Shown: positions 4,580 to 57,639 of the stretch, piece after piece
How positions within the stretch are numbered: position 1 is the stretch's first letter
Layout of the letters: every line of letters begins with the position of its first letter
Origin: Eutreptiella sp. 'Long Island Sound 2002'
Taxonomy: Eukaryota; Euglenozoa; Euglenophyceae; Eutreptiales; Eutreptiaceae
Length of the DNA stretch: 64,000 nt
Assembly: GCA_964036045.1 (NCBI GenBank)
Contig: OZ038393.1
Span: 48,166,429-48,230,428 of the forward strand
Direction: 5' to 3'
Notes under the pieces: model-generated
The model's database searches: none
Told to the model about the DNA's origin: nothing
The model's input: only the letters and a program-made list of their open reading frames with translations
Program-made: the position numbers and the translations under genes

Positions 4580-5459
4580 CTAGTCAGGAACCGGGGTCCA
4601 TTGGGCTTCCCCCTTGACGTTCCGGTTATCGGGATTGCAGGCCTGGCCTGGCCTGACCGAGCAACCCTTCCTGACCTGCTTGATGGCGGTGTAGAGAACG
4701 ATATGGTCGATCTCGAACCGACGCTGCATGTCAAGAGCTTGCTTCTTGACCCCTGGGTGCAGCATGTGGTGGTGCCAAGCTTCACACAGCTCGAGCACCC
4801 GGGACTCTGGTACTAGCAACTTACCATTCCGGTAGAGCTTGCCTTCTTCCTCAGTCAGCCCCTTTGGCCACTTCTGCCCGTCATCAGGGTCGGTCACAGC
4901 CCTATACTCGGCCGCAAAGGCCTCAGACTTGGCGTAGTCGTCGGTCCAGTCGTCCTGGAGGCAAGACTCCGGGAAGAGGTGCTTGTCGGACTCAGCTCCC
5001 TCAGGGGCGAGTACTCTGACCGCTCTGCTCACCCTCGTTGCGAGGGGGGCATCCGCGGCCATGACGACGAAGCATTTGGCACCCTCCTCCTCCATCAGGC
5101 GCTCCATTTCGATGATCCTCTTGGCTTCAGCGGTCTCAGCCTCATCGCCATGGGCAGAGATATCCTGCATGCCCTTGCTGGCGGGATAGGTCCACCTACT
5201 GAGACAGTCCGCCACGGTGTTATCCTTTCCAGGAATATAAACAACCGTAAGGTCGAACTTGGCCAAGGTGTCATGCCATCTTGCCCGTCGGGAGGCGGGA
5301 CCTGAGGGGGTGTCCACGTGCTCCTTGTGCCACGACTGCAGACTCTGATGGTCGGTGCAGACGGTGACGGGATGGAGGGCTATGTACCCAGCCCATTTCC
5401 TGAGAGCCATGACGATGGCATACGCCTCCTTTTCACGGGGCGTCCACGTCCGTCTCTGG
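4580..5459 (-). pseudogene. Gypsy RNase H C-terminal half and integrase zinc-binding region
   Basis: The frame starts inside RNase H at the insertion target site (5451-5459) and runs to a UAG at 4580. RNase H motifs include 'REKEAYAIV' (catalytic E), 'CTDHQSL' (catalytic D) and 'DNTVADCLSRW' (final D). The first catalytic D ('LRTDASDYAIG') is in the other half at 57.6 kb. A spacer follows, then an integrase N-terminal zinc-binding-like region with 'HHHMLHPG' histidines and a degenerate cysteine pair 'GCSVRPGQAC'. The apparent N-terminal extension reading into 5460-5527 is transposon end sequence, not part of the protein. Confidence 0.9.
5451..5459. repeat. Target-site duplication, left copy
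   Basis: CGTCTCTGG here is repeated exactly at 57631-57639, immediately outside the other end of the inserted DNA. On the coding (minus) strand it encodes the same codons in the same phase in both Gypsy halves, as expected for a duplicated target site. Confidence 0.93.
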
Positions 5460-5461
5460 TA

Positions 5462-5483
5462 GGTGGGAGATGGCCGCTCCTGA
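5462..5483 (+). repeat. Terminal inverted repeat, left
   Basis: Twenty-two bases beginning GGTGGGAGATGG and ending GCTCCTGA are the exact reverse complement of 57604-57625. They lie 2 bp inside the left target-site duplication. Confidence 0.92.
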
Positions 5484-5720
5484 GAATCGCCGACCCTGCT
5501 CCTGAGGAGCCAACTCCTCAAGAGCACCGACCCTGGTGCTGCTCCTCAGGAGCACCGACCCTGATAAATGCTCCTCAGGAGCACCGACCCTGTACCACCT
5601 CCAGGGTCGGTGATTCTCAGGAGCGGCGGTTGTCTTGTTAAGCATTTTGCTCCTAAGGAGCCAGGGTCATTGCTCCTCAAGAGCTAGGGGCGTGGCTCCT
5701 CAGGAGCTAGGGTCAAAGGT
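5475..5720. repeat. Left terminal palindrome cluster and foldback
   Basis: Copies of the 13-bp interrupted palindrome GCTCCTNAGGAGC start at 5498, 5541, 5570, 5649 and 5695, with a one-mismatch copy at 5672. The spacer motif ACCGACCCTG or its complement lies between many of them. The segment 5475-5499 and its near-perfect reverse complement at 5602-5626 can fold back on themselves. Such arrays may be transposase-binding or hairpin sites (inference). Confidence 0.85.
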
Positions 5721-6257
5721 TGGCATTGCTCCGCGGGAGGAAGGGGTTCGGGAAAAAAAATCGAAATTTGACAGTCAACTATGGTCTATGTATGGTGTCT
5801 TCCATGATGTATGCATTTAGAAGTGGAATGGTTGTCATGAAATTTCAATTGTTGGTTTTCCCCAGCGTATGCGCCATAATTGATTACGCTGATATTTTCT
5901 ACTTTGGAAACGACCTCTCACGAGCTTAGAAAAGGAAAAAAAAAAGGCTGTTGAACCAGAACACACCAAAACAGGGTATCGCGATTTGTATGTCGCGAAG
6001 CGCCCTGATTCAGGCAGCAGGAGAAAATGAACTGTCGTCCCCATTCAAAGCTGAACCATACACAAATGTTCATTCGTACATCCAACTCACTCATCCATCA
6101 TTAGAAGCTTTCGCCGTGTTCCAAATTACGCCTGTCCACGATTAGTTGTAAGTCGTTGGTGACCAATGGTTGACAACGGGATGACCAGATTGCTGGGTAA
6201 ATAACTGGTCCCAAGCCGTCACTCTACCCTTGAAATCGAAGACAATGATGGTCACAG
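5721..6257. other. Spacer between terminal repeats and topoisomerase II exons
   Basis: No gene recognised. The DNA is AT-rich with A-runs (5752-5759, 5937-5943). A short open segment near 5960-6020 could conceivably be an upstream topoisomerase II exon (it contains 'GYRDLY'), but the match is too weak to claim. The polypyrimidine/AG preceding 6258 is the presumed intron acceptor of the first recognised exon. Confidence 0.4.
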
Positions 6258-6906
6258 TTTCAGCACTGCAGCTTCGTCGACAGCATTTGGACGTTCAAGG
6301 GCGGAAAGCACGTGCAGTACATCCTCGACCAGATAACTGACAAGATCGGTGAAAAATTGAAGAGGAAGGTATTTCAGCGGGGGGGGGCAAACCTGTGCGC
6401 CCTTCGATGCGTTTTGATCTTTTTTGTGTAGTTTTCGATCATTGAGTTCTTGTCGTAGTCTGGGGGTAGTTGCGTGGACTTCAAGTTGTGCAAGATCCAC
6501 TGCACAAGTTGTGCACTGTGCACAACAAATGCAAAGATGCTTGACGACACAGCGGTGAGGCGCTGCCAACTCTCCTCTTCTTTTGGCTGCAGAAAATCGA
6601 TACAAAGCCCCACATCATCAGAAATGATTTGTGGGTTTTCGGCAATTGTCTGATTGGTATGTCTCTACTGGACACTGCACAATTGCTCCCGCAAAAATCT
6701 GCACTACGTGCCCTCACTGGCAAAAGTGCTCGCTGACGGAAAGCGTTGCACCAAGCGCTGCAGAGGACACTCCATCATAATGCACGCCACTCCTGCAGTT
6801 AATCCTCAATTCGATTCCCAAACGAAGGAGAATATGACCCTTGTGAAAACCAAGTTCGGCTCCGAGTGCAAGATCGGTGACAAGATGATCGATGCTGTCT
6901 GCAAAG
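6258..6906 (+). pseudogene. TOP2: DNA topoisomerase II fragment: three exons of the transducer domain
   Basis: Three exons join in phase. Exon A is 6258-6368 (phase 0 donor GTATTT). Exon B is 6593-6656 (acceptor CTGCAG, donor GTATGT). Exon C is 6799-6906 (acceptor CCTGCAG, donor GTGACT). The introns are 224 and 142 bp. The joined peptide, about 94 residues, shows hallmark type IIA topoisomerase sequence: 'FVDSIWTFKGGKHVQYILDQ', then 'TKPHIIRNDLWVFGNCLIV', then 'NPQFDSQTKENMTL' and 'FGSECKI'. The QTK loop contacts ATP and links the GHKL ATPase to the cleavage core (family knowledge). The N-terminal ATPase part and the TOPRIM, DNA-gate and C-terminal domains (EGDSAK, PLRGK, DQDGSHI motifs) were not found downstream. 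It is therefore a captured or truncated fragment, not a working enzyme. The identification is strong; functional status is inferred. Confidence 0.9.
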
Positions 6907-7051
6907 GTGACTGCCGAACCGTGGCAACTGAACGTGATACTGTGATACTTTTGTCCTGAATGGTACCGCCTGAAGCGGCCTTCAATGCATCGGGTTGTGG
7001 GCAAGGTGGGCAAGGTAGGTTGAATAGTGACCAGGGCCCGTTGACGCGCAC

Positions 7052-7680
7052 CTGAACACACTTCGTAGGAGATTTGTTCTTGAAGATCCAGGATGCGCAC
7101 AATTCCAAGACAGAGAGCGCATTGAATCAGTACGCCCGACCCCTGAAAGAAGGCTGAGGCGACTTCGCTGTTCGATGAGAGGAAGACGCTTCTGAAACAG
7201 GTCTGGTCCCAGACTGGCTCCTTACCTGTGTCATGCACAATTCGTAGAGCGGCAAAGTATCCCCAGCCACCCTGAGGAATTTGAGCCACTGCTTGAAAAT
7301 ATGGTGGGGGGCGAAAGATGCAGAATGCACGTGGGCGATGTCCGTGATGGGCAATCAAGCAGTCGAAAAACAGTAAAACCTGTGAGCGGCCAGGAAAAAA
7401 AGTGAAAGACAGGCGCTTATGTGAGAAGTTGACGGAATCAAAATTTTGTCACGAGGGGAAGAAAGGCCAAAGGCGCACACAGCATAAGGATAATCTGCAC
7501 TCTGCAATCTGAACGCACGTCTCAGCCTTGCAAAACCCTCGGGCACTCACCCAGGAACTGGCACCATCCGGCCACACTCTGGGCAGCCTAAAGGACTCCC
7601 AAATGAAGTGGCAGTCCAAAGCAACTCGGGGGATTGTCTGAGACGCCGCGATCCACAGAACGAACTCCGGCAAAACGACT
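7052..7680 (-). pseudogene. Exons of an unidentified gene, minus strand
   Basis: Three candidate exons join in frame on the minus strand. Exon 1 runs from about 7680 to 7551 (donor GTGAGT). Exon 2 is 7379-7226 (acceptor CTCACAG after a long pyrimidine tract; donor GTAAGG). Exon 3 is 7153-7052 (acceptor CCTCAG, donor GTGCGC). The introns are 171 and 72 bp. Joined peptide features include 'FVLWIAASQTIPRVALDCHF', 'FFDCLIAHHGHRP', 'QGGWGYFAALRIV' and 'LIQCALCLGIVRI'. The last segments loosely recall 3-hydroxyacyl-CoA dehydratases (GW...Y and LGxVR), but the rest does not, so no function is assigned. It converges on the topoisomerase II fragment. The splice signals are good; the start, end and upstream exons are not defined. 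Confidence 0.45.
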
Positions 7681-8822: not shown

Positions 8823-9548
8823 AGGTGGGCTGTGGGAAAAACTGGTTGGATATGATGCGATTTCAATACTGGTTTGTGGTCTTGGGAATCTGCCCCGCAA
8901 CAGCAAGGGGTAATTTTCATGCCATAGAGGGGTAAGATTTCCACACCAGAAAGGGAGCACAATTTTGACCCCAAATTCCCACAGCTTCCTGTGTTGCAAC
9001 CAGATGTGGAAAATGGGACAGAAACAAGGCCTACACATAAGATACTCAGTACGCGAGCAAGCGAGGCTAAGGCAACTGCGTAACCAGTGGTCAAATCCAT
9101 TTGTTGATATTGGTGATTGTCCACTGCTTTGTGTTATTTGCCCAGCTTACAAGAAACTTGCAAGAGCTGAGGGCAAAAAGTGGAGCAGAGCCAGCGGCAA
9201 CGACGTGTGCAAGTTCTTTGCAGTGCGAGAGCACAAGAAAGTATGTATCTTGTGTTCTAGTGGTCTGTGTTTGCATACCGGTACCCATCATGTGCGCGTC
9301 AGGCGCTGGTTGCAGGTGAGTGACCCCCCGCCCCCCTTTTACCCAAGCTCTGCCCGGGCCTCGAAAAACACCAACACGACAATGGCAACTGTGAGCGACA
9401 GGGCGCATGGTGTCCCTTATCCCAAAGCCACCAGAGGTCTGCGCAACACCATCAGCTTGAAGTGGTGGGTGGGTGGGTGGGTGGGGGTTCCCTTCATGTA
9501 CTCAATGACTGCAACATCATCCTCATGCTCGCCCTTGATTGTAGCAGG
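8823..9548 (+). repeat. Left copy of a 726-bp direct duplication flanking the satellite
   Basis: The sequence is nearly identical to 52356-53085 (constant offset 43,533, shifting by 4 at a GTGG microsatellite near 9463-9487). It carries the same exon as the right copy. Homology stops just after the ...TTGTAGCAGG splice-acceptor-like sequence, so this copy lacks the next exon that follows the right copy. Left and right copies differ by a few bases. Confidence 0.95.
8997..9315 (+). pseudogene. Cys-rich exon, truncated left copy
   Basis: This is the same exon as 52530-52848, encoding '...NPFVDIGDCPLLCVICPAYK...KVCILCSSGLCLHT...RRWLQ' and ending at a GTGAGT donor. The following exon present in the right copy is missing because the duplication breaks at the intron's 3' end (9548). 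See the right copy for domain comments. Confidence 0.45.
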
Positions 9549-10274
9549 TACATGCATCCATGCCCGAGAGCTTAGGTATTCCGGTCATGGTCAGGTTACA
9601 CATCACCATAGACCCCAATGCTATGACACGTTTAGATACACTTTTTCTGAGCCGGTATTGGCACAACAAGACCCCCTGTTCTAGACAAGGCCCGATTGAT
9701 GCCCATGCCCACCACCTCCATCCCAATCGAGACGCGGCACACCAGTCGGCGACTAGTGTGGCACCACTGTTCGCCAGGCCACGCGGCGTTGTACGTCCAG
9801 CTGCTGGAAATGTCTGCAGGACGCCGTCAACCACTGCTGGACGCCGTCACGCTTTTTCTTGCTCTGTTTCGAAGGATAATTCAGCACCAAAGTTGCAGCC
9901 CCAACGCATACCCTAAGCAACTTCTGCCCATTTCATTGTCCTGTGTACATTTTCCACTTTGTGCATATTCTCCATTGTACCCAATCGTGTATGTCCAGAA
10001 GGTCTGAAAGCAGAGTCTCATGCTAGGTTTGATCCCTGCTATCCAAACGAGCGCCCTACCGCTGGGTGCTGGGATTGTAAGGCATGACGGCGCCCACGAA
10101 TGCCAGTTTGGGTAGTCAAGGAAAAACAGCAGAAAACGCCCCTACAGGAACTGGAAGCGCGAACCTACAAAAAAAAGCAATAGAAATTGCCGGGCAGTGA
10201 AACCTGGACGGCCATCAACGACCACGTCTAAACGAGCCATGGCATGATACAAAGCCACGGGCGTAGTCGTATAT
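9549..10274. other. Unique spacer between left duplication and satellite
   Basis: No gene recognised. Open frames on both strands (for example 9560-9916 plus, 9834-9523 minus) overlap each other and have no known motif. A tRNA-like stretch lies at 10021-10078. The satellite starts with a degenerate unit around 10275. Confidence 0.4.
10021..10078 (-). ncRNA. tRNA-like sequence, possibly a tRNA-derived SINE remnant
   Basis: Read on the minus strand, 'CAGCGGTAGGGCGCTCG' resembles a tRNA D-arm/A box and 'GGGATCAAACC' resembles a T-arm/B box. The distance between them is too short for a complete anticodon arm and variable loop. It is therefore not a functional tRNA, and at best a shortened tRNA-derived sequence. 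Confidence 0.3.
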
Positions 10275-13200
10275 TGTGGGCATGCAACAAGTTGAGAAGG
10301 AGGTTTGAGGTGTTGGCACTGGGTGAAATGTGTTTTGTGGGCATGGGGGCAGTTGAAAAGGGGGTTTGAGGTGTTGGCATTGGGTGAAATGTATTTTCAG
10401 GGCATGGGGGCAGTTGAAAAGGGGGTTTGAGGTGTTGGCACTGGTGGGTGAAATGTGTTTTGAGGGCATGGGGGCAGTTGAAAAGGGGGTTTGAGGTGTT
10501 GGCACTGGGTGAAATGTGTTTTGAGGGCATGGGGGCAGTTGAAAAGGGGGTTTGAGGTGTTGGCACTGGGTGAAATGTGTTTTGAGGGCATGGGGGCAGT
10601 TGAAACGGGGGTTTGAGGTGTTGGCACTGGGTGAAATGTGTTTTGAGGGCATGGGGGCAGTTGAAACGGGGGTTTGAGGTGTTGGCACTGGGTGAAATGC
10701 GTTTTCAGGGCATGGGGGCAGTTGAAACGGGGGTTTGAGGTGTTGGCACTGTGTGAAATATGTTTTGAGGGCATGGGGTGAGTTGAAAAGGGGGTTTGAG
10801 GTGTTGGCACTGGGTGAAATGTGTTTTGAGGGCATGGGGGCAGTTGAAACGGGGGTTTGAGGTGTTGGCATTGGGTGAAATGTGTTTTGAGGGCATGGGG
10901 GCAGTTGAAAAGGGGGTTTGAGGTGTTGGCACTGGGTGAAATATGTTTTGAGGGCATGAGGGGAGTTGAAAAGGGGGTTGGAGGTGTTGGCACTGGGTGA
11001 AATGTGTTTTGAGGGCATGGGGGCAGTTAAAAAGGGGGTTTGAGGTGTTGGCACTGTGTGAACTATGTTTTGAGGGCATGGGAGCAGTTGAAAAGGGGGT
11101 TTGAGGTGTTGGCACTGTGTGAACTATGTTTTGAGGGCATGAGGGCAGTTGAAAAGGGGGTTTGAGGTGTTGGCACCGGATGAATTATGTTTTGAGGGCA
11201 TGAGGGCAATTAAGGGGGTTTGAGGTGTTGGCACTGGGTGAAATGTGTTTTGAGGGCATGGGGGCAGTTGAAAAGGGGGTTTGAGGTGTTGGCACTGGGT
11301 GAAATGTGTTTTGAGGGCATGGGGGCAGTTGAAAAGGGGGTGTGAGCTGTTGGCACTGTGTGAAATGTGTTTTGAGGGCATGGGGGCAGTTGATAAGGGG
11401 GTTTGAGGTGTTGGCATTGGGTGAAATATGTTTTGAGGGCATGAGGGCAGTTGAAAAGGGGGTTTGAGGTGTTGGCACTGTGTGAAATATGTTTTGAGGG
11501 CATGGGGTGAGTTGAAAAGGGGGTTTGAGGTGTTGGCATTGGGTGAAATGTGTTTTGAGGGCATGGGGTCAGTTGAAAAGGGGGTTTGAGGTGTTGCCAC
11601 TGTGTGAAATATGTTTTGAGGGCACGGGGGGAGTTGCAAAGGGGGTTTGAGGTGTTGGCATCGGGTGAAATATGTTTTGAGGGCATGGGGGCAGTTGAAA
11701 AGGGGGTTTGAGGTCTTGGCACTGGGCCAAATATGTTTTGAGGGCATGGGGGCAGTTGAAAAGGGGGTTGGAGGTGTTGGCACTGTGTGAAATGTGTTTT
11801 GAGGGCATGGGGTGAGTTGAAAAGGGGGTTTGAGGTGTTGGCACTGTGTGAAATGTGTTTTCAGGGCATGGGGGCAGTTGAAAAGGGGGTTTGAGGTGTT
11901 GGCATTGGGTGAAATATGTTTTGAGGCCATGGGGGCAGTTGAAAAGGGGGTTGGAGGTGTTGGCACTGGGTGAAATATGTTTTGAGGGCATGGGGGCAGT
12001 AGAAAAGGGGGTTTGAGGTGTTGGCACTTTGTGAAATGTGTTTTGAGGGCATGGGGTGAGTTGAAAAGGGGGTTGGAGGTGTCGGCACTGTCCGAAATGT
12101 GTTTTGAGGGCATGGGGTGAGTTGAAAAGGGGTTCGAGGTGTTGGCACTGGTGGGTGAAATGTGTTTTCAGGGCATGGGGGCAGTTGAAACGGGGGTTTG
12201 AGGTGTTGGCACTGGGTGAAATGTGTTTTGAGGGCATGGGGGCAGTTGAAAAGGGGGTTTGAGGTGTTGGCACTGTGTGTAATGTGTTTTGAGGGCATGG
12301 GGGCAGTTCAAAAGGGGGTTTGAGGTGTTGGCACTGTGTCAAATATGTTTTGAGGGCATGGGGGCAGTTGAAAAGGGGGTTTGAGGTGTTGGCACTGTGT
12401 GAAATGTGTTTTGAGGGCATGGGGGCAGTAGAAAAGGGGTTTGAGGTGTTGGCACTGTGTGAAATGTGTTTTGAGGGCATGGGGTGAGTTGAAAAGGGGG
12501 TTCGAGGTGTTGGCACTGGGTGAAATATGTTTTGAGGGCATGGGGGCAGTTGAAAAGGGGGTTTGAGGTGTTGGCATTGTGTGAAATATGTTTTGAGGGC
12601 ATGGGGGCAGTTGAAAAGGGGGTTTGAGGTGTTGGCACTGTGTGAAATGTGTTTTGAGGGCATGGGGTGAGTTGAAAAGGGGGTTTGAGGTGTTGGCACT
12701 GTGTGAAATGTGTTTTGAGGGCATGGGGTGAGTTGAAAAGGGGGTTTGAGGTGTTGGCACTGGTGGGTGAAATGTGTTTTCTGGGCATGGGGGCAGTTGA
12801 AAAGGGGGTTTGAGGTCTTGGCATTGGGTGAAATGTGTTTTGAGGGCATGGGGGCAGTTGAAAAGGGGGTTTGAGGTGTTGGCACTGGGTGAAATATGTT
12901 TTGAGGGCATGGGGTGAGTTGAAAAGGGGGTTTGAGGTGTTGGCATTGGGTGAAATGTGTTTTGAGGGCATTGGGGCAGTTGAAAAGGGGGTTTGAGGTG
13001 TTGGTATTGGGTGAAATATGTTTTGAGGCCATGGGGGCAGTTGAAAAGGGGGTTTGAGGTGTTGGCACTGGGTGAAATATGTTTTGAGGGCATGGGGGCA
13101 GTTGAAAAGGGGGTTTGAGGTGTTGGCACTGTTTGAAATGTGTTTTGAGGGCATGGGGGCATTTGAAAAGGGGGTTTGAGGTGTTGGCACTGGGTGAAAT

Positions 13201-16200
13201 ATGTTTTGAGGGCATGGGGGCAGTTGAAAAGGGGGTTTGAGGTGTTTGCACTGTGTGAAATATGTTTTGAGGGCATGGGGTGAGTTGAAAAGGGGGTTTG
13301 AGGTGTTGGCATTGGGTGAAACGTGCTTTGAGGGCATGGGGGCAGGTGAAAAGGGGGTTTGAGGTGTTGGCACTGGGTGAAATATGTTTTGAGGGCATGG
13401 GGGCAATTGAAAAGGGGGTGTGTGGTGTTGGCACTGTGTGAAATGTGTTTTGAGGGCATGGGGTGAGTTGAAAAGGGGGTTTGAGGTGTTGGCATTGGTG
13501 GGTGAAATGTGTTTTCAGAGCATGGGGGCAGTTGAAACGGGGGTTTGAGGTGTTGGCATTGTGTGAAATGTGTTTTGAGGGCATGGGGGCAGTTGAAAAG
13601 GGGGTTTGAGTTGTTGGCACTGGCCGAAATATGTTTTGAGGGCATGGGGGCAGTTGAAAAGGGGGTTTGAGGTGTTGGCATTGGGTGAAATGTGTTTTGA
13701 GGGCATGGGGGCAGTTGAAAAGGGGGTTTGAGGTGTTGGCATTGGGCGAAATGTGTTTTGAGGGCATGGGGGCAGTTGAAAAGGGGGTTTGAGGTGTTGG
13801 CACTCGGTGAAATATGTCTCGAGGGCATGGGGGCGGTTGAAAAGGGGTTTGAGGTGTTGGCACTGGGTGAAATGTGTTTTGAGGGCATGGGGGCAGTTGA
13901 AACGGGGGTTTGAGGTGTTGGCACTGTGTCAAACGTGTTTTGAGGGCATGGGGTGAGTTGAAAAGGGGGTTTGAGGTGTTGGCACTGTGTGAGATATGTT
14001 TTGAGGGCATGGGGGGAGTTGCAAAGGGGGTTTGAGGTGTTGGCACTGGGTGAAATATGTTTTGAGGGCATGGGGTGAGTTGAAAAGGGGGTTTGATGTT
14101 TTGGCACTGGGCCAAATATGTTTTGAGGGCATGGGGGCAGTTGAAAAGGGGGTTGCAGGTGTTGGCACTGTGTGAAATGTGTTTTGAGGGCATGGGGGCA
14201 GTTGAAACGGGGGTTTGAGGTGTTAGCATTGGGTGAAATGTGTTTTGCCGGCATGGGGGCAGTTGAAAAGGGGGTTTGAGGTGTTGGCACTGGGTGAAAT
14301 ATGTTTTCAGGGCATGGGGTGAGTTGAAAAGGGGGTTTGAGGTGTTGGCACTGGGTGAAATATGTTTTGAGGGGATGGGGCCGGTTGAAAAGGGGGTTTG
14401 AGGTGTTGGCATTGGGTGAAATATGTTTTGAGGCCATGGGGGCAGTTGAAAAGGGGGTTCGAGGTGTTGGCACTGGGTGAAATATGTTTTGAGGGCATGG
14501 GGGCAGTTGAAAAGGGGGTTTGAGGTGTTGGCACTGGGTGAAATGTGTTTTGAGGGCATGGGGGCAGTAGAAAAGGGGGTTTGAGGTGTTGGCACTGTGT
14601 GAAATGTGTTTTGAGGGCATGGGGTGAGTTGAAAAGGGGGTTCGAGGTGTTGGCACTGGGTGAAATATGTTTTGAGGGCATGGGGGCAGTTGAAAATTGG
14701 GTTTGAGGTGTTGGCATTGTGTGAAATATGTTTTGAGGGCATGGGGGCAGTTGAAAAGGGGGTTTGAGGTGTTGGCACTGTGTGAAATGTGTTTTGAGGG
14801 CATGGGGGCAGTTGAAAAGGGGGTTTGAGGTGTTGGCACTGTGTGAAATGTGTTTTGAGGGCATGGGGTGAGTTGAAAAGGGGGTTTGAGGTGTTGGCAC
14901 TGGTGGGTGAAATGTGTTTTCTGGGCATGGGGGCAGTTGAAAAGGGGGTTTGAGGTGTTGGCATTGGGTGAAATGTGTTTTGAGGGCATGGGGGCAGTTG
15001 AAAAGGGGGTTTGAGGTGTTGGCACTGGGTGAAATATGTTTTGAGGGCATGGGGTGAGTTGAAAAGGGGGTTTGAGGTGTTGGCATTGTGTGAAATCTGT
15101 TTTCAGGGCATGGGGGCAGTTGAAAAGGGGGTTTGAGGTGTTGGCACTGTGTGAAATGTGTTTTCAGGGCATGGGGGCAGTTGAAAAGGGGGTTTGAGGT
15201 GTTGGCACTGTGTGAAATGTGTTTTGAGGGCATGGGGGCAGTTGAAAAGGGGGTTTGAGGTGTTGGCACTGTGTGAAATGTGTTTTGAGGGCATGGGGGC
15301 AGTTGAAAAGGGGGTTTGAGGTGTTGGCACTGGTGGGTGAAATGTGTTTTCTGGGCATGGGGGCAGTTGAAAAGGGGGTTTGAGGTGTTGGCATTGGGTG
15401 AAATATGTTTTGAGGGCATGGGGGCAGTTGAAAAGGGGGTTTGTGGTGTTGGCACTGGGTGAAATGTGTTTTGAGGGCATGGGGTGAGTTGAAAAGGGGG
15501 TTTGAGGTGTTGGCATTGTGTGAAATCTGTTTTCAGGGCATGGGGGCAGTTGAAAAGGGGGTTTGAGGTGTTGGCACGGTGTGAAATGTGTTTTCAGGGC
15601 ATGGGGGCAGTTGAAAAGGGGGTTTGAGGTGTTGGCACTGTGTGAAATATGTTTTGAGGGCATGGGGCCAGTTGAAACGGGGGTTGGAGGTGTTGGCATT
15701 GGGTGAAATATGTTTTGAGGCCATGGGGGCAGTTGAAAAGGGGGTTCGAGGTGTTGGCACTGGGTGAAATATGTTTTGAGGGCATGGGGGCAGTTGAAAA
15801 GGGGGTTTGAGGTGTTGGCACTGTGTGAAATGTGTTTTGAGGGCATGGGGTGAGTTGAAAAGGGGGTTGGAGGTGTGGGCACTGTGTGAAATGTGTTTTG
15901 AGGGCATGGGGTGAGTTGAAAAGGGGTTTGAGGTGTTGGCACTGGTGGGTGAAATGTGTTTTCAGAGCATGGGGGTAGTTGAAAAGGGGGTTTGAGGTGT
16001 TGGCACTGGGTGAAATATGTTTTGAGGGCATGGGGGCAGTTGAAACGGGGGTTTGAGGTGTTGGCACTGGGTGAAATATGTTTTGAGGGCATGGGGTGAG
16101 TTGAAAAGGGGGTTTGAGGTGTTGGCATTGGGTGAAATGTGCTTTGAGGGCATGGGGGCAGTTGAAAAGGGGGTTTGAGGTGTTGGCATTGTGTGAAATA

Positions 16201-16890
16201 TGTTTTGAGGGCATGGGGGCAGTTGAAAAGGGGGTTTGAGGTGTTGGCACTGGGTGAAATATGTTTTGAGGGCATGGGGTAAGTTGAAAAGGGGGTTTGA
16301 GGTGTTGGCATCGGGTGAAATGTCTTTCGAGGGCATGGGGGTAGTTGAAAAGGGGGTTTGAGGTGTTGGCACTGGGTGAAATATGTTTTGAGGGCATGGG
16401 GTGAGTTGAAAAGGGGGTGTGAGGTGTCGGCATTGGGTGAAATATGTTTTGAGGGCATGGGGGTAGTTGAAAAGGGGGTTTGAGGTGTTGGCATTGGGTG
16501 AAATATGTTTTGAGGGCATGAGGGCAGTTGAAAAGGGGGTTTGAGGTGTTGGCACTGGTGGGTGAAATATGTTTTGGCGGCATGGGGGCAGTTGCAACGG
16601 GGGTTTGAGGTGTTGGCACTGTGTGAAATATGTTTTGAGGGCATGGGGGTAGTTGAAAAGGGGGTTTGAGGTGTTGGCACTGGGTGAAATATGTTTTGAG
16701 GGCATGGGGTGAGTTGAAAAGGGGGTGTGAGGTGTCGGCATTGGGTGAAATATGTTTTGAGGGCATGGGGGCAGTTGAAACGGGGGTTTGAGGTGTTGGC
16801 ATTGGGTGAAGTGTGCTTTGAGGGCATGGGGGCAGTTGAAAAGGGGGTTTGAGGTGTTGGCACTGTGTGAACTATGTTTTGAGGGCATGG

Positions 16891-48000: not shown

Positions 48001-51000
48001 GTTGAAAAGGGGGTTTGAGGTGTTGGCATTGTGTGAAATATGTCTCGAGGGCATGGGGGCAGTTGAAAAGGGGGTGTGAGGTGTTGGCACTGGGTGAAAT
48101 ATGTCTCGAGGGCATGGGGTGAGTTGAAAAGGGGGTTTGAGGTGTTGGCATTGGGTGAAATATGTTTTGAGGGCATGGGGGCAGTAGAAAAGGGGGTTTG
48201 AGGTGTTGGCACTGGGTGAAATATGTCTCGAGGGCATGGGGGCAGTTGAAACGGGGGTTTGAGGTGTTGGCACTGGGTGAAATATGTCTCGAGGGCATGG
48301 GGGCAGTTGAAAAGGGGGTTTGAGGTGTTGGCACTGGGTGAAATATGTTTTGAGGGCATGGGGTGAGTTGAAAAGGGCGTTGGAGGTGTTGGCATTGGGT
48401 GAAATATGTTTTGAGGGCATGGGGTGAGTTGAAAAGGGGGTTTGAGGTGTTGTCATTGGGTGAAATATGTTTTGAGGGCATGGGGGCAGTTGAAAAGGGG
48501 GTTTGAGGTGTTGGCACTGGGTGAAATATGTTTTGAGGGCATGGGGTGAGTTGAAAAGGGGGTTTGAGGTGTTGGCATTGGGTGAAATGTGTTTTGAGGG
48601 CATGGGGGCAGTTGAAACGGGGGTTTGAGGTGTTGGCACTGGGTGAAATATGTCTCGAGGGCATGGGGGCAGTTGAAAAGGGGGTTTGAGGTGTTGGCAC
48701 TGTGTGAAATGTGTTTTGAGGGCATGGGGGCAGTTGAAAAGGGGGTTGGAGGTGTTGGCATTGGGTGAAATATGTTTTGAGGGCATGGGGGCAGTTGAAA
48801 AGGGGGTTTGAGGTGTTGGCACTGTGTGAAATATGTTTTGAGGGCATGGGGGCAGTTGAAAAGGGGGTTGGAGGTGTTGGCACTGGGTGAAATATGTTTT
48901 GAGGGCATGGGGGCAGTTGAAAAGGGGGTTTGAGGTGTTGGCATTGGGTGAAATATGTTTTGAGGGCATGGGGTGAGTTGAAAAGGGGGTTGGAGGTGTT
49001 GGCACTGTGTGAAATGTGTTTGGAGGGCATGGGGGCAGTTGAAAAGGGGGTTTGAGGTGTTGGCACTGTATGAAATATGTTTTGAGGGCATGGGGGCAGT
49101 TGAAAAGGGGCTTTGAGGTGTTGGCATTGGGTGAAATATGTTTTGAGGGCATGGGGGCAGTTGAAAAGGGGGTTTGAGGTGTTGGCACTGGGTGAAATAT
49201 GTTTTGAGGGCATGGGGGCAGTAGAAAAGGGGCTTTGAGGTGTTGGCATTGGGTGAAATATGTTTTGAGGGCATGGGGTGAGTTGAAAAGGGGGTTTGAG
49301 GTGTTGGCACTGGGTGAAAAGTGTTTTGAGGGCATGGGGGCAGTTGAAACGGGGGTTTGAGGTGTTGGCACTGGGTGAAATATGTCTCGAGGGCATGGGG
49401 GCAGTTGAAAAGGGGGTTTGAGGTGTTGGCATTGTGTGAAATATGTTTTGAGGGCATGGGGGCAGTTGAAAAGGGGGTTGGAGGTGTTGGCATTGGGTGA
49501 AATATGTTTTGAGGGCATGGGGGCAGTTGAAAAGGGGGTTTGAGGTGTTGGCACTGGGTGAAATATGTTTTGAGGGCATGGGGGCAGTTGAAAAGGGGGT
49601 TGGAGGTGTTGGCACTGGGTGAAATATGTTTTGAGGGCATGGGGGCAGTTGAAAAGGGGGTTTGAGGTGTTGGCACTGGGTGAAATATGTTTTGAGGGCA
49701 TGGGGTGAGTTGAAAAGGGGGTTTGAGGTGTTGGCATTTGGTGAAATGTGTTTGGAGGGCATGGGGGCAGTTGAAACGGGGGTTTGAGGTGTTGGCACTG
49801 GGTGAAATATGTCTCGAGGGCATGGGGGCAGTTGAAAAGGGGGTTTGAGGTGTTGGCACTGTGTGAAATATGTTTTGAGGGCATGGGGGCAGTTGAAACG
49901 GGGGTTTGAGGTGTTGGCATTGGGTGAAATATGTTTTGAGGGCATGGGGGCAGTTGAAAAGGGGGTTTGAGGTGTTGGCACTGGGTGAAATATGTTTTGG
50001 GGGCATGGGGGCAGTTGAAAAGGGGGTTGGAGGTGTTGGCACTGGGTTAAACATGTTTGGAGGGCATGGGGTGAGTTGAAAAGGGGGTTTGAGGTGTTCG
50101 CATTGGGTGAAATATGTTTTGAGGGCATGGGGGCAGTTGAAAAGGGGCTTTGAGGTGTTGGCATTGGGTGAAATATGTTTTGAGGGCATGGGGGCAGTTG
50201 AAAAGGGGGTTTGAGGTGTTGGCACTGGGTGAAATATGTTTTGAGGGCATGGGGTGAGTTGAAAAGGGGGTTTGAGGTGTTGGCATTGGGTGAAATGTGT
50301 TTGGAGGGCATGGGGGCAGTTGAAACGGGGGTTTGAGGTGTTGGCACTGGGTGAAATATGTCTCGAGGGCATGGGGGCAGTTGAAAAGGGGGTTTGAGGT
50401 GTTGGCACTTTGTGAAATCTGTTTTGACGGCATGGGGGCAGTTGAAACGGGGGTTTGAGGTGTTGGCATTGGGTGAAATATGTTTTGAGGGCATGGGGGC
50501 AGTTGAAAAGGGGGTTTGAGGTGTTGGCACTGGGTGAAATATGTTTTGGGGGCATGGGGGCAGTTGAAAAGGGGGTTGGAGGTGTTGGCACTGGGTGAAA
50601 CATGTTTGGAGGGCATGGGGTGAGTTGAAAAGGGGGTTTGAGGTGTTGGCATTGGGTGAAATATGTTTTGAGGGCATGGGGGCAGTTGAAAAGGGGGTTT
50701 GAGGTGTTGGCATTGGGTGAAATATGTTTTGAGGGCATGGGGGCAGTTGAAAAGGGGGTTTGAGGTGTTGGCATTGGGTGAAATATGTTTTGAGGGCATG
50801 GGGGCAGTTGAAAAGGGGGTTTGAGGTGTTGGCACTGGGTGAAATATGTTTGGAGGGCATGGGGTGAGTTGAAAAGGGGGTTTGAGGTGTTGGCATTGGG
50901 TGAAATGTGTTTTGAGGGCATGGGGGCAGTTGAAAAGGGGGTTTGAGGTGTTGGCACTGTGTGAAATCTGTTTTGACGGCATGGGGGCAGTTGAAACGGG

Positions 51001-52355
51001 GTTTTGAGGTGTTGGCATTGGGTGAAATATGTTTTGAGGGCATGGGGGCAGTTGAAAAGGGGGTTTGAGGTGTTGGCAGTGGGTGAAATATGTTTTGAGG
51101 GCATGGGGGCAGTTGAAAAGGGGGTTGGAGGTGTTGGCACTGGGTGAAATATGTTTTGAGGGCATGGGGGCAGTTGAAAAGGGGGTTTGAGGTGTTGGCA
51201 CTGGGTGAAATATGTTCTGAGGGCATGAGGGGAGTTGAAACGGGGGTTTGAGGTGTTTGCATTGGGTGAAATATGTTTTGAGGGCATGAGGGGAGTTGAA
51301 AAGGGGGTTTGAGGTGTTGGCACTGGGTGAAATATGTTTTGATGGCATGGGGGCAATTGAAAAGGGGGTTTGAGGTGTTGGCATTGGGTGAAATGTATTT
51401 TCAGGGCGTGGGGGAAGTTGAAAAGGCGGTTTGAGGTGTTGGCATTGGGTGAAAAGTGTTTTGAGGCCATGGGGGCAGTTGAAAAGGGGGTTTGAGGTGT
51501 TGGCACTGGGTGAAATGTGTTTTGAGGGCATGGGGGCAGTTGAAACGGGGGTTTGAGGTGTTGGCATTGGGTTAAATTTGTTTTGAGGGCATGGGGGCAG
51601 TTGAAAAGGGGGTTTGAGGTGTTGGCACTGGGTGAAATATGTTTTGAGGGCATGGGGGCAGTTGAAAAGGGGGTTTGAGGTGTTGGCACTGGGTGAAATA
51701 TGTTTGGAGGGCATGGGGTGAGTTGAAAAGGGGGTTTGAGGTGTTGGCATTGGGTGAAATATGTTTTGAGGGCATGGGGGCAGTTGAAACGGGGGTTTGA
51801 GGTGTTGGCACTGGGTGAAATATGTCTCGAGGGCATGGGGGCAGTTGAAAAGGGGGTTTGAGGTGTTGGCACTGTGTGAAATCTGTTTTGAGGGCATGGG
51901 GGCAGTTGAAAAGGGGGTTTGAGGTGTTGGCATTGTGTGAAATATGTCTCGAGGGCATGGGGGCAGTTGAAAAGGGGGTTTGAGGTGTTGGCACTGGGTG
52001 AAATATGTTTTGAGGGCATGGGGGCAGTTGAAAAGGGGGTTGGAGGTGTTGGCACTGGGTGAAATATGTTTTGAGGGCATGGGGGCAGTTGAAAAGGGGG
52101 TTTGAGGTGTTGGCTCTGGGTGAGATATGTTTTGAGGGCATGAGGGGAGTTGAAAAGGGGGTTTGAGGTGTTTGCTTTGGGTGAAATATGTTTTGATGGC
52201 ATGGGGGCAGTTGAAAAGGGGGTGTGAGGTGTTGGCATTGGGTGAAATGTGTTTTCAGGGCGTGGGGTGAGTTGAAAATGGGGTTGGAGGTGTTGGCACT
52301 GGGTGAAATATGTTTTGAGGGCATGGGGGCAGTTGAAAAGGGGGTTTGAGGGAGG

Positions 52356-53085
52356 AGGTGGGCTGTGGGAACAACTGGTTGGATATGATGCGATTTCAAT
52401 ACTGGTTTGTGGTCTTGGGAATCTGCCCCGCAACAGCAAGGGGTAATTTTCATGCCATAGAGGGGTAAGATTTCCACACCAGAAAGGGAGCACAATTTTG
52501 ACCCCAAATTCCCACAGCTTCCTGTGTTGCAACCAGATGTGGAAAATGGGACAGAAACAAGGCCTACACATAAGATACTCAGTACGCGAGCAAGCGAGGC
52601 TAAGGCAACTGCGTAACCAGTGGTCAAATCCATTTGTTGATATTGGTGATTGTCCACTGCTTTGTGTTATTTGCCCAGCTTACAAGAAACTTGCAAGAGC
52701 TGAGGGCAAAAAGTGGAGCAGAGCCAGCGGCAACGACGTGTGCAAGTTCTTTGCAGTGCGAGAGCACAAGAAAGTATGTATCTTGTGTTCTAGTGGTCTG
52801 TGTTTGCATACCGGTACCCATCATGTGCGCGTCAGGCGCTGGTTGCAGGTGAGTGACCCCCCGCCCCCCTTTTACCCAAGCTCTGCCCGGGCCTCGAAAA
52901 ACACCAACACGACAATGGCAACTGTGAGCGACAGGGCGCATGGTGTCCCTTATCCCAAAGCCACCAGAGGTCTGCGCAACACCATCAGCTTGAAGTGGTG
53001 GGTGGGTGGGTGGGTGGGTGGGGGTTCCCTTCATGTACTCAATGACTGCAACATCATCCTCATGCTCGCCCTTGATTGTAGCAGG
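52356..53085 (+). repeat. Right copy of the 726-730-bp direct duplication
   Basis: It matches 8823-9548 almost base for base. The satellite joins it abruptly at 52350-52356 with no spacer, whereas the left copy is separated from the array by about 0.7 kb. The right copy continues without break into the downstream exon, so it appears to be the original or more complete version. Confidence 0.95.
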
Positions 53086-53153
53086 CCACAGAGGCGTTCT
53101 TGACTGACATGTTTAAAAGTATGGTGGTCTTTGGTTCGCTTGCTTTACTTTGA
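52530..53153 (+). CDS. Two-exon 3' end of an unidentified Cys-rich (zinc-finger-like) protein gene
   Basis: Exon a ends at 52848 with a strong GTGAGT donor; its start is uncertain, in the region 52500-52560. Exon b is 53085-53153 (acceptor TTGTAGCAG, phase 0) and ends in UGA. Exon a contains 'DCPLLCVICPAYKKLARAEG' and 'KFFAVREHKKVCILC', then 'SSGLCLHT...HHVRVRRWLQ'. It thus has CxxC pairs spaced by basic residues and histidines, which could coordinate zinc. The layout vaguely recalls BED/TTF-type fingers or the C-terminal Cys-rich domain of some DNA transposases, but no catalytic domain is visible and I do not assign a family. Upstream exons, if any, were lost where the satellite abuts. Confidence 0.45.
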
Positions 53154-54310
53154 AGCTTGAACAACGCTCTGGGAACCAATCGATTTGGTGCGCATGTTTG
53201 TCTGCTTTGTTCATGTTGATGTGTTTGGCTTTGGCATCAAACCACGTGCTCTTGCTCTGCAGGGTGTACTGTGTATGCTACACATGCAAAGCGCGCTACC
53301 ATCAAGCCTGAGGACATGAAGTTGGCTGCTGCGAAGGGATCAGGTCTCCATTAAATGAAAAAAACCTGTTGTATTGTATGGTTTTAATGAGCCACGACGT
53401 CTGTCTGGTTACCACATTGACCATTCATGAGATCTGGGATCACAGTTCCAACCCTGCTTCTGCTTAAGACAGCTCAGTCTTGCACACAGATCTTCACCTG
53501 TTAGCAGACCCCCCCCCCCCCCCCCCTCCTCCTGGCCTCAGCCATTTCCCCATGATGATACACTTATGCTTTTGTTTGTCCTTGACTTGAACTCCACCTG
53601 CCAAATTTCATTTCTACTGCCCCCAGATGAGAGTTTTTTGCATTCCCTACCCCTCCTGAATGGGATTTGTGCTTTTCTGGCAGCTGATAGTTTTTGCCTA
53701 TCTTGCCCCCACCGCATGCAATTGCTGACAGTCGGCTGACAGCCCCCCCCCCCCCCACTGTTCGGGACTTCTGCATTCCTTCTCGAAACCGGAGGCGTCA
53801 GCAGATACCACTACTACGGTGTGCACTTCATGTGACTTCACAAGCCAACAATCAACAAAAAACTCTGGACTGAATGTGGTGTGGGTGGGTGGATAGGAAT
53901 GGTTTCCCCCAAACCTCACGTGTATTTGTGCCCTGAGCACCGCATCACAGGAGCATGGCAGTTGGATGGTGAATGTCTGGTGGAGATGCGCACTCACTGA
54001 GAGTTTCCAATAAAGACTTAAATGGCAGTGCAGAGTGCTGAAGTTCACAGAATTTTGGACCAATTAGTTGAATTCGTTGCATCATACACATCTGCTCTTC
54101 CTCTACAATCTTCTATTTGTCCATACTCAATTTCTCTTCAGCCATGTGTCAACCCCCCCCCCCCCCCCCACAACGATTCACCCCGATTTGTTGTTCAGTG
54201 GGTTGCAGGATTGAACACCAGAAAAAGGCATTTTATGGGTGGGAATTCTTCAGCTGACATACTTCAGTGTCACAGTGGTCTGGCCCCCCATGCATTTGTT
54301 TTGTTTGTTA
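53154..54310. other. AT-richer non-coding DNA with poly-C tracts
   Basis: No gene recognised. Long C tracts occur at 53509-53526, 53743-53756 and 54153-54169. A cysteine-rich open stretch at 53262-53311 after a CTGCAG ('VYCVCYTCKARYHQA' then stop) might be an alternative last exon of the preceding gene. Confidence 0.4.
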
Positions 54311-54315
54311 ACAGA

Positions 54316-54588
54316 TCCGCACTGAGTTCTGGTGGCAAAGTGTGCTGCTTGTTTGAGCCAGGGGTCAGAATTGACAGCACAGACCTTGGTGGATCTCAGC
54401 AAGCGCTAATTGCAGAACGACACCCTCACCTTTCGACGGACGACAAATTGTGTACACTGTGTGTCCATTACCTCAAACCGTGTCCTTTCTTTGCGAAAAC
54501 ATCACCAAGAATAACATTGCCTGCAACACCAGAATCACTTGCCCAATCAACCACCGCTGTTACTCCTGCCAAGAACAAACCCGACTGA
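54316..54588 (+). CDS. Candidate terminal exon of an unknown gene
   Basis: A good acceptor (pyrimidine-rich stretch ending GTTAACAG at about 54315) is followed by an open frame of about 90 codons ending in UGA at 54586-54588. The peptide contains 'GGKVCCLFEPGVRIDSTDLG' and 'DDKLCTLCVHYLKPCPFF'. It has several cysteines, including a CxxC, and then a Thr/Pro-rich tail. No family is recognised and no upstream exon is defined. It may be another captured fragment. Confidence 0.35.
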   Translation, partial: SALSSGGKVCCLFEPGVRIDSTDLGGSQQALIAERHPHLSTDDKLCTLCVHYLKPCPFFAKTSPRITLPATPESLAQSTTAVTPAKNKPD

Positions 54589-56640
54589 ACCAAGACAGCC
54601 TGGAGCCCGCAAACATATTGCAAAGAATGTGACTGTGGACGTCTCTTATGATTCACAGATTGGGTATTTGCTTGCAATGATCAATGGTGATGTCAACAAG
54701 CGTATTCCCTCTTGGGCATTGTAGCCACAGACAGTGTTTCTGGAAATTACTTGGCAGCTTTTGCAATTGTGTTGCACTTTTTGCATCTGAGCTTGCCGCA
54801 GGGGGCCCTCGTGAGTGAAAAAATTTCCCCCACTTCGGGGGGTTGATGCGTTTGCACTTGTGAGGAGTCCCCCAGTGGGGTGAGAAAGCATTTGCTTCGT
54901 GGGACGTGGACATTGAGGTGCTGAATGGTTTCTGACCGTGCGCGATTTCCGCCGTGTGCTTGTTGATTTCATTATTTTCAGAGGTTAAAACCATTGGCGA
55001 GGGTGAAAACCAACAAGGCAGATTCATTTTGCAGACTGAACCAAATGCGGGAACCAGCGATCAATTGCGGGCATTTGCAAGTGTTGTGCGTTGAGTTCAC
55101 TGGACCGGGTCAAGGGATTAAGGCAATCAACAGATCAGAGCACTGGCGGCGGCGGTGGTGGAAGACAGAATTGCAGTGGGACCGTAATTAGCAAGCAATG
55201 GTCCCGATATGGAGGTGGACACGCTGCTAGTACCACCACTGAGGGCAAGAATCCTGAGTAACTCGCAATGTTCTCGTAAGCCCTATGAGAGAACTAGCAA
55301 TCAACCATGGGCTGCTGAGAGTGTTGTGCCCTGAGCTTAGTCGGCCAGCCTCAAATCGAACCAGTAAATAGCCAAACTTGTGATTAGTGCACTGGCGAAG
55401 CAGGTGGTGGAGGGTAGAATTTGAGTTCAATTGCATGCGTGCCATGCTGGGCCTCTGTGGCAAGTTGCCAGGCTAGGTTAAAGGTTGTTAAAAACAGCAA
55501 ACATGGAGCAATTAGCAAGCAGTGTGACGGTGGCAGCAGAATTTCGCAATTATGGCAAGCTGATTTGGCCAAATCGTGCAACCATCATTCTTTTGCATCA
55601 GGACATGGCACAGTGAAGTGCTCGCCAATGCCGCCCAGGGAACCCACTGCAGTCATTTTTGATTGGTTGATGCCTTTGCATTACACATCTGAACACCATT
55701 GGTCACGGGTACCACATAGGTACTACCAAGATGCAAGGTATAGTGCCTTTCCTATGGAGCATAAAAAAAAAGAAACCATGGCCAGCCCTTTGTCCAGTGT
55801 CCAGTCATTAATTTCCCACGATTAGTAGTTCATTAAATTGATCGCAATTGTTCATCAGCTGCCAAGAATTGACAACAACCATGTATCGGACCACTCTGCG
55901 GATGCACTGACAGCCAAGGCATTGTGCGATATATTTGTTTGGAGTGAAAAAGCCAATTTTTTTTTGTGGTGGGACAAAGTAGTGAATACAAGAGTGTTGG
56001 GCCATACCATACAAGATATTGCAGCACTGTATGGTATGGATACCATGCGGATACCGTACAATACATATGCTGTATGGTACCAATTTTCATATCTTTGGAC
56101 CGTAAGGCTCCATTGCAATTTGATGTGTTAGTTGAATTATTGATGCGCCAATTGGACTACGAATTAGTATTCATTTTTGGTTGATTATTTACTTTGTGAA
56201 TTTCGGGATAGGATTTTTTGTGCATTTTGCGTACTGCTTGATGCATCATTTTCATCCAAAGTCTGATGCAACACAACGGGCAATGATGCTGTATGGAACA
56301 ATTGTATTCTGGTGGGGTCCGAAAGTTCAATGAATGCGAATCTTCTAAAGTAAGGCAGATCAAGTGCAATTTTGTGGTTTCTCCCGCAACCAATGGAATT
56401 GATGGTAGAAAAGGCGGTGTTGATTGCTATGTGATTGGTGCCAATACAAAATGTCAATTGTTATACACATGTATTTAGGTTTAAGTGCTTGCTGCATGGT
56501 TCTTTGGCTAAGGCATTAGGAAAAAAGGTTGATTGAAAAAGATAGCACAAGAGGTTAAAGACTAAAAATGCCCAATCAAAGCAAAAACATAGTTTTCATT
56601 GCGGTTTCAAAGTAGAGGCAATGATGTTGTTTGCAAAACA
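54589..56640. other. Non-coding stretch, no gene recognised
   Basis: Short open frames on both strands overlap and show no known motif. The DNA is AT-rich towards the right. It contains the hairpin cluster at 56002-56095. Confidence 0.4.
56002..56095. repeat. Hairpin cluster
   Basis: CCATACCATAC (56002-56012) and its exact reverse complement GTATGGTATGG (56029-56039) form an 11-bp-arm hairpin with a 16-base loop. Related GGTATGG/GGTACC-type pieces continue to about 56081. This may be the remnant of a small inverted-repeat element. Confidence 0.55.
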
Positions 56641-57357
56641 AAATTACACCCAAGTTGCATGGCTATAAGAGCTTCAAATTCACCTTTTTGAGACGAAGTA
56701 TTTTGTTAATTGACGTTGGTCACAAAGCAAACATTGAAGCAAAGGAAACAAATGTCTAGTAGACTTTCTAAAGCGCAATGCAACTTTTGGGTTGTTGGTA
56801 ATGTTCCAAGAATGATGCGGAGCGGATGTTGAAATGATGCGAAACAACAAGCACAAAGTGAAAAGCACTTAATTTTGTTTTAGCTCCCCGAAAGACACGG
56901 ACGGTGCTCCTGTGGAGCAAAATTGCTCTTCAGGAGCAATAGTGGTTCTTCCCAAGATCAGTGATTCAAACAAACGTCTTGGTTCACTGAAAAAATTTTG
57001 GAGGAAACCTCTAGTTGAACCTCCAAAGCTAACAAAAATGCAACTTTGATCTGCCTTGTTGGCAATCTGGCATGCACGATGGGCACCGTGTACGAAAAAG
57101 TACACATAAGTAATCAAAAATTGGGAATAAGTCTTTTTGTTTTGGGTCCTGAGGGCCGCTTTTGTTCGGAAGCAGAATCGTTCCCAAGGAGCAGAGGTGG
57201 TGTTCTTCAGGATCAATGATGTAGACATTAGGAAAGCCTGTAAGAGTCCAAAAATGCGACTTTTATCCAAGTTGTTGTTAACTTTGCAGCCACAATGGGC
57301 ACCCTTTGTAGAAAATATGCAAAGTGCTCAGCTAAAAGTGAAAAAACAACCTTTTTC
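56641..57357 (+). repeat. Degenerate subterminal tandem repeats, right end only
   Basis: Three diverged units can be aligned by two landmarks. The first is GC(A/G)ACTTTT-type sequence at 56779, 57041 and 57256. The second is TGTTTT(A/G)G followed by a CTCC/TCCT motif at 56876, 57139 and 57357. Spacing is about 262 and 215-218 bp. Each unit includes a decayed copy of the GCTCCT...AGGAGC palindrome. The terminal palindrome cluster thus appears to have spread inwards. Confidence 0.6.
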
Positions 57358-57603
57358 TGTTTTGGCTCCTCAGGAGCCAGGGTCGGTGCTCCTCAGGAGC
57401 CAACTTGCTCCTCAGGAGCAGGGTTGGTGCTCCTCAGGAGCTTTGGCTCCTGAGGAGCCGGGGTCGGTGCTCCTCAGGAGCCCCGTCAGGGTCGGTGCTC
57501 CTGAGGAGCTAGGGTCGGTGCTCCTGAGGAGCACCCCAGGGTCGGAGCTCCTCAGGAGCCAGGGTCGGAGCTCCTCAGGAGCAGGAGCCAGGGGCGGCTC
57601 CTG
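57358..57603. repeat. Right terminal palindrome cluster
   Basis: Ten copies of GCTCCT(C/G)AGGAGC start at 57363, 57386, 57405, 57427, 57444, 57467, 57494, 57518, 57547 and 57570. Most are separated by the spacer CAGGGTCGG(T/A). The spacer is in opposite orientation to that in the outer part of the left cluster, as expected for inverted element ends. Confidence 0.9.
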
Positions 57604-57625
57604 TCAGGAGCGGCCATCTCCCACC
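57604..57625 (-). repeat. Terminal inverted repeat, right
   Basis: This is the exact reverse complement of 5462-5483 over 22 bp. Five further bases (57626-57630) separate it from the right target-site duplication. Confidence 0.92.
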
Positions 57626-57630
57626 ACCCC

Positions 57631-57639
57631 CGTCTCTGG
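57631..57639. repeat. Target-site duplication, right copy
   Basis: CGTCTCTGG, identical to 5451-5459. The Gypsy RNase H coding sequence resumes immediately after it on the right. Confidence 0.93.

Follow-up and report, generated by a model that had tools for sequence, protein, structure and literature searches.

A 52-kb DNA transposon of Eutreptiella that is mostly satellite array, and its family of giant relatives

A stretch of 64,000 nucleotides from the euglenophyte Eutreptiella sp. 'Long Island Sound 2002' (GenBank assembly GCA_964036045.1, contig OZ038393.1, positions 48,166,429 to 48,230,428 of the forward strand; this whole stretch is hereafter the window) contains a DNA transposon of 52,172 bp, at positions 5458-57629. 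The insertion is real, and it places a giant transposon precisely inside another mobile element, within the pol gene of a Gypsy element. A 61-bp satellite array makes up 42 kb of the 52-kb element, about four fifths; it is the source of the element's size and its most unusual part, and it was absent from an earlier note on this DNA that had been made from the sequence alone. Comparison with the rest of the genome (2.28 Gb in 2,205 contigs, one assembly) leads us to conclude with considerable confidence that the element is among the giants in a family of terminal inverted repeat (TIR) DNA transposons whose arrays most likely move as cargo. The genome also contains 39 matches to the paraflagellar rod protein (PF05149, best E 1.2e-105), a marker of Euglenozoa, which was matched in 0 of 14 control genomes. 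Coordinates of all features are collected in Table 1.

Both edges of the insertion carry the ten-base word CCGTCTCTGG (5450-5459 and 57630-57639), which contains the CGTCTCTGG that the earlier note had correctly located at the two edges and had read as a 9-bp target duplication. The termini are fixed by other copies as GGTAGGTGGGAG... and GGGTGGTGGGAG..., so the duplication is 8 bp long; the same length is seen in all 22 further copies with a perfect duplication, and the additional GG is coincidental. The 22-bp inverted repeat described in the same note, GGTGGGAGATGGCCGCTCCTGA, is present exactly at 5462-5483 (+) and 57604-57625 (-), with 0 expected in 100 shuffles, and the Gypsy frame does continue in phase through RNase H across the insert, as had been claimed. 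When the flanks were joined with a single copy of the duplication, the reconstructed empty site aligned without gaps over 300/300 bp to two other Gypsy copies fetched from the same genome, with 98.0% identity for locus L027 and 97.3% for locus L029. Relatives in the protein database (e.g. P0001, P0003, and P0030) also run through the insertion site. The integrase core of the interrupted gene was recognized by an rve match of 31.1 bits, slightly below the cut-off of 32.6 for that model.

Relatives of the element were identified by searching the genome with its left 301 bp, which resulted in 40 long matches including the window itself (the best 40 of 542 candidates were scored). Twenty copies were fetched for comparison, and the termini were set by aligning them. 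The family ends are GGKWGGTGGGAGATGGCCGCTCCTGA, the target duplications vary between loci, and the subterminal repeats of the element are palindromic. The 26-bp end pattern occurs exactly at 231 sites in the genome (115 forward and 116 reverse), compared with 0 for the reversed control. End positions were listed for 100 of the 231 sites, covering contigs C1 to C3 and the part of C4 below 59.3 Mb; among these, 29 facing left/right pairs lie less than 200 kb apart and span 181 bp to 150,484 bp. Target duplications were then compared in two sets. In the first, consisting of the 20 fetched copies, locus L005, and the window, 12 were readable at both ends and flanks, and 11 of these have a perfect duplication and one a single mismatch. 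The second set consisted of 16 facing pairs, with 12 perfect duplications, one with a single mismatch, and three pairs without a duplication. Overall, 23/28 end pairs carry a perfect 8-bp duplication, 2/28 have one mismatch, and 3/28 have none. For pairs spanning more than 20 kb, window included, the duplication is perfect in 10 of 13, and the largest listed pair (C2:186231183-186381666), whose ends are 150.5 kb apart, is flanked by the perfect duplication CAAAACAT. The proposal of a family of giant elements is accordingly borne out by other copies, with duplicated giants of 28-40, 83, and 150 kb.

Satellite was found in the interior of every duplicated giant chosen for sampling. At the mid-points of eight such elements (27.9, 28.2, 29.3, 36.1, 37.2, 37.2, 40.0, and 83.4 kb), 596-601 of 601 bases are satellite in all eight; a second sample of the 83.4-kb copy is satellite as well, as are three of three sampled points in the 150.5-kb copy. 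Within the window, identity of the array to its consensus (0.90) is even along the length, and exact internal duplications reach 1.2 kb. A 28-mer of the 61-bp unit has 9,701 occurrences in the genome (control 0), which amounts to roughly 3.0 Mb of satellite genome-wide when scaled from the 28-mer density in the window. Among the 100 28-mer places listed, all on C1, the clusters at 72.0 Mb and 76.9 Mb lie within or beside listed family ends. Open frames in the array, which reach up to 1,709 codons from stop to stop, were considered as a coding gene but not taken up: long frames are expected because the consensus lacks a stop in any minus-strand frame. The window array contains 101 stops; 89 array stops were counted against 178 +/- 14 in a substitution-matched null, i.e. 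half, although this null ignores the shared ancestry of units. Relative to the consensus, substitutions in the array show a strong strand asymmetry, with C to T at 0.099 and G to A at 0.003.

Evidence on whether arrays move between loci comes from two giants on contig C4, at 5241804-5279006 (37.2 kb) and 6532347-6572322 (40.0 kb), which lie in opposite orientation. Over 8 kb of array sampled at matched offsets, they are 99.7-100% identical (2000/2000 bp at three offsets, namely 15 and 24 kb from the left end and 6-8 kb from the right end, and 1993/1999 bp at the fourth, 7 kb from the left end). Their target duplications nevertheless differ (TGAACCTG vs ACCCTAAG), and their flanks are alike at 3/33 and 10/33 positions, which makes joint movement of array and element the most likely explanation. 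A segmental duplication of the chromosomal region, instead of transposition, might be considered for two giants about 1.25 Mb apart on one contig, but the different target duplications and the dissimilar 33-base flanks make it hardly credible.

For the other element pairs, exact shared runs are at most 247 bp, or at most 520 bp between array starts (the comparison reported pairs of 120 bp or more). The left arms of loci L010, L011, L012, and L020 are 99.6-99.7% identical to that of the window over about 4.78 kb. Similarity in 300-bp bins continues into the arrays: the window and L010 are 96-100% identical over 1.2 kb of array start, L012 is 97-100% identical to both the window and L010 over 1.5 kb, and L020 is 95-100% identical to L010 and L012 for at least 1.5 kb and to the window for only 0.6 kb. 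Past these conserved starts, identity per bin falls to 91-96% among the window, L010, and L012 and is mostly 91-97% overall, down to 88% for L024. At least some of the arrays thus go back to a single array in an ancestral element and later turned over internally. If small elements had instead inserted first and each array had then expanded independently in place, no giant would have jumped; element lengths that range from 181 bp to 150 kb are compatible with such a history, as are the short exact runs that the arrays of most giants have in common, but we consider it improbable in light of the two C4 giants, identical to 99.7-100% at four matched points between different duplications and flanks, and of the collinear proximal arrays in several giants. 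Change in length after insertion likely also occurs. An artefact of assembly, with arrays mis-sized or one array put at two loci, appears very improbable. Three perfect 2-kb identities would also be expected from a duplicated repeat contig, and the array lengths depend on one assembly, but between the C4 copies there are 6 mismatches in 1,999 bases and an overall length difference of 2.8 kb, the other sampled giants have no long exact stretch in common, and ten elements longer than 20 kb, including the window, lie within perfect duplications that a wrong join would not yield.

The superfamily was judged from the ends of the elements. The TIRs begin with GG (GGTA.../GGGT...), and the duplication is 8 bp in every perfect case. 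Mutator elements, including Pack-MULEs, typically make 9-bp target duplications, and some MULEs produce duplications of 8 bp; hAT elements make 8-bp duplications and have a TIR with a CA-type terminus, which the GG ends of this family do not match. The earlier note had favored the Mutator-like/Pack-MULE type on the basis of captured exons, which were found, and chiefly of a 9-bp duplication, which proved to be 8 bp rather than the length typical of Mutator. Host gene fragments between TIRs are a general property of Pack-type elements and, when they retain introns as here, are typical of Pack-MULEs; taken together with the MULEs that make 8-bp duplications, they leave a Mutator assignment as a less likely but serious alternative. 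Merlin elements are described as having TIRs starting with GG, 8- or 9-bp duplications, and internal tandem repeats in several families, and two Euglena gracilis Merlin families make 8-bp duplications (PMC8101967). That described pattern is the one seen here, where the ends begin with GG and all perfect duplications (23/28 pairs) are 8 bp. Taken together, these two features match Merlin more closely than Mutator, and the family may be called Merlin-like by its ends alone.

The enzyme was sought in the arms of the element and among the relatives. A Pfam scan of 131 arm open reading frames (ORFs) of at least 45 amino acids (67 + 64) matched PF00204 in two, with a best E of 0.0002, and all other matches had E 0.0059 or weaker. 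The element of the window, which had earlier been described as lacking a visible transposase, is apparently non-autonomous. The genome contains 87 matches to the Merlin-type domain PF12762. One of these, at locus L092 (C14:31966200-31968799), is a compact Merlin element with an intact-looking frame of 369 amino acids (PF12762 E 1.1e-14), GG ends, and an 8-bp flanking repeat, although that repeat is ATATATAT and stands beside an AT-rich simple repeat. Locus L009 on C12 resembles the window at its left end (about 96% identity over 444 bp) and has, at 355-2352 (from C12:59890730 onward), a frame of about 660-690 amino acids that looks like a transposase and contains no Pfam domain. It was rejected as the transposase of the family, as it is part of another family that is abundant in the genome, with 6,626 first-look candidates (117 were scored and matched), and no right end of the family under study was found within 20 kb; the protein database holds 90 of its relatives, which are 29-93% identical and likewise have no Pfam domain. 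Copies of 15.6 and 15.7 kb were also set aside as candidate autonomous elements, since one 1.5-kb sample of each consisted of satellite.

We propose that a DDE transposase of the Merlin type or a relative, acting in trans, would recognize the ends and the subterminal repeats and insert the element with an 8-bp stagger. Between jumps, the array would grow, shrink, and homogenize through unequal exchange or slippage, and short deletion derivatives would arise by faulty repair of breaks within the element. Such derivatives shrink to 181 bp. Ten deletion junctions were read in eight copies: at six of them the overlap is exact (1 bp at four, 3 bp at one, and 4 bp at one), and the other four have longer but imperfect BLAST overlaps (4, 5, 5, and 7 bp). 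Most of these overlaps are too short to mean much, and we infer faulty break repair as their origin. It is fairly likely that the family has made its interior an expandable satellite and mobilizes whole arrays (to about 150 kb) by means of a DDE transposase working on short ends, and there is a similarly good chance that arrays have accordingly spread through the chromosomes as intact units and not unit by unit.

Several observations weigh against this scheme. All three of the 28 end pairs without a duplication span more than 20 kb (37.6, 26.7, and 123.7 kb); their ends probably belong to different copies, and the mid-point of the 37.6-kb pair, the one of the three covered by satellite sampling, is not satellite. 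The duplication test itself covered 20 of the 29 listed pairs, including all 12 of more than 20 kb. Similarity at the array start ends after 0.3 kb for L011 and is missing altogether for L024. The identity of the C4 giants reflects shared descent of the whole element and is silent on the enzyme and on cut-and-paste as opposed to copying. On C1, the listing of exact ends shows none near the satellite clusters at 45.45 Mb and 69.70-69.79 Mb or near a single unit at 8.87 Mb; some of the satellite therefore lies outside the family or in elements whose ends have changed. As to the enzyme, no transposase was recognized in the window, where DDE_Tnp_IS1595 was unmatched among the arm ORFs, as it would be in a non-autonomous member; 44 of the 87 Merlin matches fall in the stretch of the genome for which ends were listed, and the closest is 208 kb from a listed end; and the TIR sequence of L092, the one Merlin element of the genome with its ends read, is unlike that of the family. 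Finally, all results rest on a single assembly.

One of the satellite places on C1 (C1:69700753-69787942) is an 87-kb stretch in which exact 28-mers of the satellite are thinly scattered; no exact end is listed near it, and it may be satellite outside elements.

The array is bordered by two copies of segment A. In a genome search with this segment, all 40 scored matches (the best 40 of 131 candidates) cover at least 723 of its 726 bases at 100% identity (rounded). Five other duplicated elements on C2 and C3 (15.6, 28.2, 29.3, 36.1, and 37.2 kb) each contain two copies of A, which makes the layout A-B-array-A' a feature of the family. Among the 18 scored copies on C1 to C3, 17 have a listed family end less than 13 kb away; the remaining one is 54 kb from such an end with a second A between. 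The block A-B-array-A' could be a nested unit with A and A' as long terminal repeats, through which an older transposon would have acquired the satellite and then carried it onward. The direct repeats A and A' (726/730 bp) lie on either side of the array, the 4-bp word CCAC stands directly outside both borders of the block, TG...CA lies just inside the borders of A, and a purine run precedes A'. The TG...CA borders, however, fit no duplication, and there is no solo A among the 18 copies, 17 of them near a family end, so that a nested origin seems doubtful at best. A and A' as an introner, suggested by splice-like borders (CAG|GT...AG|G), was favored by no test. An exon in A (9004-9240), zinc-finger-like in appearance, gave no Pfam match at E 1. 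The window has no Rfam match at the gathering score, and the exact 22-bp TIR has none in viral_contigs, where records of this genome may be excluded.

The left arm holds three captured exon pieces of topoisomerase II with GT-AG introns. The peptide assembled from them matches DNA topoisomerase 2-beta in PDB (E 8.5e-22, residues 1-80 of 83), and the DNA_gyraseB Pfam matches of single exons (two exons, E 0.0002 and 0.011) are under the curated cut-off. The family copy at L027 holds another gene fragment at 1725-2255, a 2OG-Fe(II) oxygenase (E 5e-12, over the cut-off). Both fragments appear to derive from host genes. L027 is itself inserted in a copy of apparently the same Gypsy family.

Table 1. 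Features of the 52-kb element and its insertion site (positions in the window)
Feature	Positions	Strand	Remarks
Interrupted Gypsy pol: remaining RNase H and integrase core	3971..5457	-	
Left target-site duplication CCGTCTCT	5450..5457	.	8 bp
Left terminal inverted repeat GGTAGGTGGGAGATGGCCGCTCCTGA	5458..5483	+	
Left subterminal GCTCCTCAGGAGC-type repeats	5484..5746	+	
Captured topoisomerase II exon 1	6270..6368	+	start undefined, then GT; borders by eye
Captured topoisomerase II exon 2	6593..6656	+	AG/GT flanked; borders by eye
Captured topoisomerase II exon 3	6799..6906	+	AG/GT flanked; borders by eye
Segment A	8823..9548	+	726 bp; duplicated past the array
Segment B	9549..10289	+	between A and the array
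61-bp satellite array	10290..52351	+	about 686 units, on average 90% identical to the consensus
Segment A'	52356..53085	+	99.3% to A: one substitution and one 4-bp gap
Right arm	53086..57360	.	no convincing domain match
Right subterminal GCTCCTCAGGAGC-type repeats	57361..57603	-	
Right terminal inverted repeat GGGTGGTGGGAGATGGCCGCTCCTGA	57604..57629	-	24/26 identical to left
Right target-site duplication CCGTCTCT	57630..57637	.	8 bp
Interrupted Gypsy pol: RT (RVT_1) and N-terminal part of RNase H	57640..59255	-	

Transposons that carry a small number of tandem repeats are regarded as seeds of satellites, and the intermediate states apparently coexist here in one genome, from near-bare ends (181 bp) through short derivatives to giants 28 to 150 kb long. 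Within one lineage, the arrays of different copies can be compared, which makes the rate of satellite turnover after copying to a new place testable; equally testable is the maximum length of DNA that can be moved in a eukaryote by a transposase working on short ends. Shorter tandem arrays inside transposons are already on record; satellite-filled giants of this size were not found in the literature searched. Among the open-licence publications that the searches listed, none has a title or abstract opening that describes arrays of such size between duplication-bearing ends, and in a 2019 review on giant transposons of eukaryotes the word 'satellite' is absent from the main text, where 'tandem repeat' appears a single time (PMC6431247).

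Among known systems, Merlin elements (IS1016/IS1595-related, including Symbiodinium families) share with this family the GG TIRs, the 8-bp duplications, TIRs that are sometimes imperfect, and internal tandem repeats, but the families considered there have a transposase domain and a few tandem units, whereas here no such domain was recognized and the units number in the hundreds (PMC8101967). Pack-MULEs and other Pack-type elements are alike in having TIRs and gene fragments with introns, and L027 carries a different fragment from the window; the present family differs in its 8-bp duplication and in a length that is mostly satellite instead of captured genes. Teratorn, a giant piggyBac-type element of medaka, is likewise a giant DNA transposon, at about 180 kb, but its size is attributed to fusion with a herpesvirus and not to a tandem array (PMC5601938, PMC10175614). 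The Cg_HINE Helentron of the Pacific oyster is also non-autonomous and also disperses satellite-like arrays, but it belongs to a different element class, and its longest array has about 29 monomers (PMC7492417). The foldback transposon Tetris of Drosophila virilis, with its TIR-220 satellite, is likewise a non-autonomous TIR element in which internal repeats expanded to a satellite; its arrays reach at most 66 copies of about 220 bp and are said possibly to disrupt the element (PMC4079207). In contrast to Tetris, the element in the window has kept its two ends and the duplication intact around an array of about 686 units of 61 bp.

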